A stretch of 32,252 nt of DNA from Roseibium sp. (GTDB taxonomy: Bacteria; Pseudomonadota; Alphaproteobacteria; Rhizobiales; Stappiaceae). The stretch lies in NCBI RefSeq assembly GCF_025698965.1, contig NZ_JAILWL010000013.1, positions 1 through 32,252 of the forward strand, read 5' to 3'. The position numbers and the translations under genes were made by a program. The notes beneath the pieces were generated by a model, which made no database searches, was not told the origin of the DNA, and was given only the letters and a program-made list of their open reading frames with translations. Positions 2,940-16,483 of the stretch are shown in pieces; the first letter of the stretch is position 1; the number at the start of each line of letters is the position of its first letter.

Positions 2940-3047
2940 CTAGGCCGTGTGGACGAATTGGTTTCGGGCGCGGCGCGTGTTGCATTTGAGTTGCGAGCAG
3001 GAGGGATGCGAAGCCCGTATTGATGTACGGCGAGCCTTCCGACGCCC
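2940..3047 (+). repeat. Interspersed structured repeat, copy A
   Basis: ctaggccgtgtggacgaattggtttcgggcgcggcgcgtgttgcatttgagttgcgagcaggaggga... aligns to the reverse complement of 15050-15154; contains nested inverted repeats. Confidence 0.75.
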
Positions 3048-3175
3048 TCAAGACTCAAATGCGCCGCGTTCTATAGGCCGCGATTGCGCTGAAAACGGTG
3101 ATGAGTTGTGAGGAAAAGTGCAAAATGTGGACCTTGCCCGATTGAACGCTGTTGCGCAGCAGCAGATCGCCGTTT

Positions 3176-14737: not shown

Positions 14738-15049
14738 CGCAATACTCTTAAAGCTCGACTTAAACTCTATCAGCGACCTGTGTAGATCGGGTTAGGAAAC
14801 ACGGTTACCCATTGGTTTCCTTTTACCATTCCTTGAAACACTCACACTTTACCCAGTCAGGTGCTGTTACTCACATCACAAATTGTTTGGATCCTTTTCA
14901 CAGTTAACGCCACTGCGGACGCGTGTCCGCGGTGTCTTTAAAGACATCTCATCCGCCGCCGCCGCATGTGAACGACAGCGAAATGGAATTCGTTAAGGGA
15001 GGTTTCGGACCCGAGGTCATACCAACGCCGAAACGGGCACTCTTTTCTC

Positions 15050-15154
15050 AAATCCCGGAAGGTCGCGGCACAATTGAGTCCCGCGAGCTTCCTTCCTGCT
15101 CACGGCCCAAATGCAACACGCGCTCGTCTGAAACCAATCCGCTCACACGACCTA
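15050..15154 (-). repeat. Interspersed structured repeat, copy B (abuts/overlaps the dihydroorotase stop codon)
   Basis: Minus strand ctaggtcgtgtgagcggattggtttcagacgagcgcgtgttgcatttgggccgtgagcaggaagga... aligns with 2940-3047 (+); contains hairpin GGAAGGTCGCGG...CCGCGAgcttCCTTCC. Confidence 0.75.
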
Positions 15155-16483
15155 GTTCTTCAGGCCATCTTGAAAGAGGACAGCTTCACCAAGAGATGGT
15201 GTCGCGAGCTCGCCTTCCCACATCACACGCCGCCCTCTGACAACTGTTCCCACCGGCCAGCCGGTAACCTTTTTGCCGTCATAAGGCGTCCAGCCGCATT
15301 TGGAAGCGATCCAGTCATTGGAGATCGTTTCGATGTGCTTGAGGTCGACGACAGTGAAATCGGCATCGTAGCCGACGGCAATCCGCCCCTTGCGCGCGGT
15401 CTGGAACAGGCGTGCCGGTCCGGCGCTGGTCATATCTACGAAACGCGCCAGACTCAGGCGACCGGCATTGACATGATCCAGCATGATCGGCACCAGGGTC
15501 TGAACACCGGTCATCCCGGAGGGCGAGGCCGGATAAGGCTTCTGCTTTTCCTCCAGCAGATGCGGTGCATGGTCAGATCCGAAAATATCCAGAATGCCTT
15601 GCTGCAGACCCCACCACAAACGTTCCGAATGGCGAGGCGCACGTACAGGCGGGTTCATCTGAACCAGTGTCCCGAGACGGTGATAGGCTTCGTCCGTCAG
15701 GGTCAGGTGATGAGGGGTCACCTCGATCGATGCGACGTCCTTGTAGTCGATCAGGAAGTCGACTTCTTCTGCGGTCGAAAGATGCAGAATGTGGATCTTG
15801 GCACCGGTTTCACGAGCAATGCCGACAAGGCGCTGTGTGCATTGCAGGGCTGCAATTTCATCGCGCCAGACCGGATGCGAACTCGGGTCGCCCTCCACAC
15901 GTTCGCCTTGACGCTCGCGCAGACGGAACTCGTCTTCGGAATGAAAGGCCGCACGGCGGCGCGTTGCGGAGAGGATCTCACGCACGCCCTGATCGTCCTC
16001 AACCAGAAGGTCACCGGTTGAAGACCCCATGAAAACCTTGATGCCGGCCGCCGCCGGAAGCCGCTCCAATTCAGGGATGTCCTTGACATTGTCACGCGTG
16101 CCACCGACCCAGAACGCAAAGTCGCAGTGCATGCGATGATGCCCACGCTTCACCTTGTCTGCGAGTGCCGATTCAGACGTTGTCAGTGGATTGGTGTTCG
16201 GCATTTCAAAGACCGCCGTGACCCCGCCCATGACCGCAGCGCGCGAACCTGATTCCAGATCCTCCTTGTGATCGAGGCCAGGCTCGCGAAAGTGCACCTG
16301 AGTGTCCATGACACCAGGGAGAACATGCAATCCCGTGCAGTTGATCACTTGACCGGCTTGAGACGCATCAAAAGAGCCGATCCCGGCAACGCGCCCGTCT
16401 TTCACCGCCACATCACGAAGTCCCTCGCCATCCTGGTTGACTACGGTTCCGCCTTTCAGGATCAGGTCATAGGTCGCGCTCAT
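15152..16483 (-). CDS. pyrC: Dihydroorotase
   Basis: GVMDTQVHFREPGLDHKEDLESGSRAAVMGGVTAVFEMPNTNP...FGSDHAPH...PSGMTGVQTLVP. Confidence 0.92.
   Translation of the reverse strand: MSATYDLILKGGTVVNQDGEGLRDVAVKDGRVAGIGSFDASQAGQVINCTGLHVLPGVMDTQVHFREPGLDHKEDLESGSRAAVMGGVTAVFEMPNTNPLTTSESALADKVKRGHHRMHCDFAFWVGGTRDNVKDIPELERLPAAAGIKVFMGSSTGDLLVEDDQGVREILSATRRRAAFHSEDEFRLRERQGERVEGDPSSHPVWRDEIAALQCTQRLVGIARETGAKIHILHLSTAEEVDFLIDYKDVASIEVTPHHLTLTDEAYHRLGTLVQMNPPVRAPRHSERLWWGLQQGILDIFGSDHAPHLLEEKQKPYPASPSGMTGVQTLVPIMLDHVNAGRLSLARFVDMTSAGPARLFQTARKGRIAVGYDADFTVVDLKHIETISNDWIASKCGWTPYDGKKVTGWPVGTVVRGRRVMWEGELATPSLGEAVLFQDGLKN

Follow-up and report, generated by a model that had tools for sequence, protein, structure and literature searches.

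Two partial copies of a folded repeat

The window analysed here (the whole 32,252-nucleotide stretch from Roseibium sp.) carries two partial copies, A and B, of a folded repeat, together with dnaA (708-2228) and an amidohydrolase gene that borders copy B (Table 1). Upstream of dnaA lies an imperfect palindrome of about 60 bp (388-447, 74%), which is perhaps part of the origin region.

Table 1. Coordinates of the repeat features in the window (TIR, inverted end of the element).
Feature	Position	Strand	Basis or remark
Copy A, left half-unit of the element (TIR and hairpin 1)	2940-3073	+	Aligned to the full-length copies L087 and L074; ends just past hairpin 1, right half absent
CTAG target/terminal sequence, copy A	2940-2943	.	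Full-length copies have CTAG on either end, and the empty site has one CTAG
Left TIR of copy A, CTAGGCCGTGTGGACGAATTGGTTTCGGG	2940-2968	+	27 genome matches, 0 for the control
Hairpin 1 of copy A	2969-3068	+	Coordinates verified; homologous columns covary across the family
Hairpin 1, outer stem, CGCGGCG with CGCCGCG	2969-2975/3062-3068		
Hairpin 1, outer stem, CATTTGAGT with ACTCAAATG	2983-2991/3053-3061		
Hairpin 1, inner stem, GGAGGG with CCTTCC	3000-3005/3035-3040		
Hairpin 1, inner stem, CCGTA with TACGG	3015-3019/3026-3030		
Copy B, without its right end: left TIR, hairpin 1 (37 nt deleted internally), linker and beginning of hairpin 2	15022-15155	-	Alignment and BLAST
CTAG at the left end of copy B	15152-15155	-	The amidohydrolase gene (15152-16483, -; Amidohydro_1) has this TAG as its stop codon, its open reading frame ending exactly there

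A preliminary description, made from the letters of the window, had presented the copies as a two-copy interspersed repeat with a hairpin conserved in both and compensatory changes between their stems. The similarity itself holds (an inverted pair at 2973-3009 and 15087-15123, 84%; BLAST E value of 5e-10), and for copy A, which had been placed at 2940-3047, the start and all the inner and outer stems were exact, but the copy extends to about 3073 and forms the left half of an element of ~270 bp. Its fold is better than that of shuffled sequences (z = -3.5; 0 of 200). The hairpin is not conserved in copy B, however: aligned to full-length relatives, the copy lacks 37 nt of the hairpin tip, the CCTTCC that pairs with GGAAGG in its supposed inner stem belongs, in the rest of the family, to the linker after the hairpin, and the whole copy folds no better than shuffles (z = -0.75). 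The compensatory change between A and B is therefore an artefact of this deletion, in which non-homologous bases pair. That the repeat is interspersed and has a conserved fold was thus the right conclusion drawn from invalid evidence, since real covariation needs many full-length relatives. No named family had been recognized, and we likewise found none: Rfam gave no match at gathering scores for either the window or a full-length copy (only chance matches, E ≥ 0.17), and searches of the open literature found no description of the repeat, of MITEs in Roseibium/Labrenzia or of IS5-MITEs with a covarying fold.

A dispersed element with a history of movement

In the draft genome to which the window belongs (6.36 Mb, 678 contigs), copy A gave 36 BLAST matches, about 30 of them at E < 0.01, and is 88-93% identical to copies on C57, C9, C191, C463 and elsewhere; the genome search that had been proposed thus returned many copies rather than two. 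Allowing up to three mismatches, we counted 27 occurrences of the 22-nt terminal sequence and none of the reversed pattern. Contigs C9 and C463 carry full-length copies of about 270 bp, which start with CTAGGCCGTGTGGACGAATTGGTTT and end with its reverse complement, and have TIRs of ~25-34 bp and CTAG at both ends. Shorter copies that retain both ends (about 142, 172 and 194 bp) are also present, as are half copies like copy A. Two remnants of about 32-38 bp (L092 819, G000:C156; L093 130, G000:C83) look like two joined ends with almost no interior, possibly the product of deletion across the palindrome. The genes neighbouring the copies are ordinary, and we rejected a protein-coding remnant as the source of the repeat, which proved not to be a degenerate protein gene or a fragment from inside an IS.

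Within Roseibium genomes, the element falls into subfamilies. An exact TIR match was obtained in R. sediminicola CAU 1639, which has a full-length copy (L087 5548-5820). In G060, six copies show 98-100% identity over 272 bp, and five copies in G021 are 97-98.5% identical to each other over ~272 bp, in both cases between unrelated flanks; searches with the TIR pattern gave 46 occurrences in G021 and 33 in G050 (reversed control, 0). The orthologue in G013 of one G060 site reads ...GAGAAG CTAG GTTGAT..., with a single CTAG and flanks that are 95% identical, so the element was inserted at the G060 site, where CTAG now stands on both sides. Near-identical dispersed copies and this one clean empty site demonstrate, at the level of sequence, past mobility of the element, which has the properties of a MITE: a length of ~270 bp (below ~600 bp), TIRs, transposase genes found in separate IS elements only, and dispersed copies with target duplication and an empty orthologous site.

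Several variants were seen. One 272-bp element (L127 1499-1770; G003:C2:576580) has the same TIR (GGCCGTGTGGACGAATTGG) and CTAG ends with a quite different interior, which also folds strongly (z = -8.2) and amounts to a second core on the same ends. A 591-bp copy (L170 471-1061; G017:C1) has an apparent insert of ~320 bp in hairpin 2 that is rich in inverted repeats. A lone end of the window's subfamily occurs in another Roseibium species (L101; G017:C1:99684), with no second end nearby.

Insertion sequences with the same ends

A mobile element, with ends matching insertion sequences of the IS5 family, was not among the proposals of the preliminary description. Around single TIRs in sister genomes, we found 846-bp elements with the same ends (TIR CTAGGGTCTGTGGACAT) whose two frames encode DUF4096 (PF13340) and DDE_Tnp_1, which identifies them as IS5/IS427-type insertion sequences. 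In G050, an IS5-type remnant of ~800 bp ends in CTAGGCCGTGTGGACGAATTG, with which the subfamily of the window also terminates, and the first ~20 nt of the copy A TIR are identical to the end of an IS5-type element in that genome. Relative to the IS5-family elements L165 and L194, the MITE shares 20-24 terminal nt at 92-100% identity. Further IS5 elements, co-resident with the MITE in some genomes, have TIRs resembling the classes of other subfamilies, and both broad classes are represented. Because the terminal ~20 bp of the MITE recur in such insertion sequences of sister genomes, IS5/IS427-type elements are the likely movers of the MITE in trans. The draft genome itself holds one DUF4096 gene only, whose flanks are without this TIR; we rejected this gene as the source on that ground, and the element may be stranded in this genome. 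Elsewhere, about 550 bp separate a MITE copy from a DUF4096 gene of IS5 type (G165:C1:2427272, L285).

MITEs are usually treated as deletion leftovers with an unconstrained interior. An origin of this kind, as an ordinary internal-deletion derivative of one IS5 element in which the palindromes are incidental, would agree with the TIRs and the CTAG target and has a parallel in MITEPsy1 of Pseudomonas syringae, which probably derives from ISPsy2 (PMC3189936). We nevertheless consider it very unlikely, as the TIR changes across the order around a conserved interior, and as comparison with 11 IS5 elements revealed no similarity beyond words of chance size, with only the terminal ~20 bp shared; derivation of the interior from an IS by deletion was accordingly not borne out in this comparison.

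A common folded core with differing ends across Hyphomicrobiales

A covariance model of hairpin 2 (the right hairpin) matched in 44 of 398 Hyphomicrobiales genomes, spanning 23 of 141 genera and about 19 families (the scan scored about 8 candidates per genome, so that copy numbers are lower bounds); in a class-wide sample, matches outside the order came from three genomes only. Clear inverted ends, mostly 264-273 bp apart and next to CTAG or a variant of it, accompany 53 of the 65 matches examined. The ends belong to different TIR classes among elements (GGGTCTGTGGACA..., GGCCGTAAACTCATAAATTAAC, GGGTGCGGACCCTTTATGGG, GGGTCAGGACTCATTCATA and GGTCGTGGTGAGGATTTAACG), sometimes with several classes within one genome (G065, G066). 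Since these classes surround the same folded core, the core is common and the ends vary. Terrarubrum flagellatum, a member of another family, has a full-length element on a plasmid; elements in the plasmid records found had no annotation of their own, and no match was obtained among phages and viral contigs.

The full-length fold is three-way (Y-shaped), with the TIRs as its base and, in order from there, hairpin 1, a small hairpin in the linker and hairpin 2; folded as DNA, the R. sediminicola copy has z = -15.9. A profile of the left half matches 45 of 75 right halves when these are read from their own end (0 in the opposite polarity; 2 for the reversed control), so the element is an inverted dimer of a half-unit, of which copy A is roughly one. 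Unpaired motifs are also conserved (AGGA, GAC, CTTGAAA, CTGCG and GCTCCT). No IHF sites were found.

Covariation, and whether the fold acts as RNA or DNA

Among 29 Roseibium elements, changes on both sides with pairing kept were observed at 38 of 84 pairs, and, mapped on a tree, the inner hairpins of the Roseibium set showed 28 double changes (26 still paired) vs a null expectation of 6.4 (2.5), but no column pair from Roseibium alone was significant in a stricter tree-aware test against all column pairs. A set of 43 elements from many families had double changes at 74 of 82 pairs, with 92% of cells pairing (43-46% when the partner was slid by one base); 51 of the 82 pairs (inner, 32 of 53) were significant against a tree-aware null, for which we used our own, home-made implementation modelled on R-scape. 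A structure-blind analysis of this set gave 20 significant column pairs, all of which fall inside the structure. The covariation proposed in the preliminary description is thus significant in the wide set of elements.

Pairing of this kind could in principle be kept by mutation alone, given that template switching during replication perfects inverted repeats (PMC8794818, PMC7202029), with one arm repeatedly copied onto the other and the fold itself free of selection. Intermediates with a single-sided change or a wobble were few, as this would predict, and adjacent pairs in A3 change in concert above the chance level (43, vs a mean of 25.5 and a maximum of 44 in 1000), whereas the clustering in Roseibium alone is not above chance (6 vs 2.6, maximum 10), and arm correction offers no explanation for the conserved unpaired motifs or for a length that stays near 264-273 bp over many families. 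We therefore regard mutation as a doubtful sole cause; template switching may contribute to the pairing, the expected clustering of double changes being weak.

Selection on the fold as RNA, in the form of a mobile non-coding RNA or of a 3'-UTR stabilizer or terminator spread by transposition, seems unlikely. It would fit the strong covariation, the conserved unpaired motifs and the many copies directly behind stop codons, and hairpin 1 is G-U rich and, in 64 of 75 elements, folds more stably on the + strand. Hairpin 2, by contrast, almost always folds more stably on the opposite strand (the + strand is lower in 3 of 75), an opposition that is expected of inverted half-units; with the two hairpins pointing opposite ways, we rejected strand-specific stability as a test for RNA. 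Insertions behind genes occur in both orientations, and, as noted above, Rfam has no match. Selection on RNA also predicts that G-U exceeds A-C among imperfect pairs, but G-U is no commoner than A-C in the TIR stem (34 vs 37) or hairpin 2 (38 vs 42); hairpin 1 has 57 vs 19 before removal of its two wobble-consensus columns, and the totals without four columns that have a wobble consensus or are poorly aligned are 73 G-U vs 92 A-C. Because of these wobble counts, the opposite strand stabilities of the hairpins and the insertion behind stop codons both ways round, we hold with moderate confidence that the fold acts at the DNA level, with the G-U excess leaving room for an RNA role of the hairpin 1 half.

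Target sites at stop codons

Of 76 elements, 38 have a target TAG that terminates an open frame of 80 codons or more, compared with 19 of 102 other CTAG sites. The stop codon lies on the left of the element only in 14 cases, on the right only in 21 and on both sides in 3, with no clear orientation bias. Copy B sits at such a stop codon, as does a copy in G060 (L117), where a frame of 140 codons ends next to a gcvP-like start, from which we take the frame to be gcvH. The gene stays whole because CTAG is kept at insertion, and the excess may reflect a safe-site effect, in which CTAG inside genes is unavailable, rather than a preference.

A MITE family with a conserved fold

Taken together, copies A and B are probably decayed members of a non-autonomous MITE mobilized in trans by IS5/IS427-type DDE transposases, an attribution that draws on comparison of sequences, and this MITE is a ~270-bp inverted dimer of half-units of ~134 nt. 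Intact elements would be laid out as CTAG, a TIR of ~30 bp, hairpin 1, a short linker, hairpin 2, TIR and CTAG, so that both ends present the same TIR and subterminal hairpin. The transposase would bind the TIR and insert the element at CTAG, and, as both ends have CTAG, a gene would survive insertion at its ...C TAG stop codon intact. The fold would work as DNA, either as a hairpin on single-stranded DNA or as a cruciform, and may draw the two ends together or bind a host factor, and template switching during replication would help by re-perfecting the arms. Over time, lineages would keep the folded core while the TIRs come to fit different IS5 groups.

The element is a new order-wide MITE family in which the folded core is conserved and the ends are exchanged. 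More tentatively, it is possible that it represents a class of passengers with folded DNA as the conserved functional part, a hairpin dimer of ~270 bp that swaps TIRs across IS5 transposases throughout the order and in which selection sees structure and not sequence. The interior of this MITE is better preserved across the order, in shape and length, than the ends used to move it, and the shape of the fold has been kept while almost every stem base has changed. This makes testable whether DNA folding aids the movement of DDE-type MITEs and whether one passenger is passed between transposase lineages, and it cautions against taking RNA-style covariation in a bacterial repeat as proof of a functional RNA.

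Relation to known elements

The nearest described element is MITEPsy1, which is likewise gene-less, has IS5-like TIRs, duplicates CTAG (or YTAA) and has been shown to transpose, but which at 100 nt, with an 18-nt TIR, has a restricted distribution and no reported conserved double-hairpin core (PMC3189936). IS427-type members of the IS5 family share the TIR ends and the CTAG target but are ~840-890 bp long, encode DUF4096 and a DDE transposase, and do not share the MITE interior. Br-REP1 and Br-REP2 of Bradyrhizobium, from the same order, are also intergenic palindromic repeats near gene ends; their consensus sequences differ, and the parts of the source consulted describe no TIR or CTAG for them (PMC5082802). 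CGTC-tagged REPs (20-40 bp, with a CGTC tag, an 8-9-bp stem starting AT and a CCA tail, and without a known transposase) are palindromes common in Alphaproteobacteria, are often arranged as head-to-head dimers and share the CGTC/GACG tag (PMC3733652), whereas the stems of the MITE are longer and do not start AT, and IS5-type TIRs enclose the pair. We rejected membership of this class, as the unit is ~100 nt and the stem continues GCAAAG rather than AT, though the tag is often present, standing at the same place in many elements (44 of 75 and 51 of 75).
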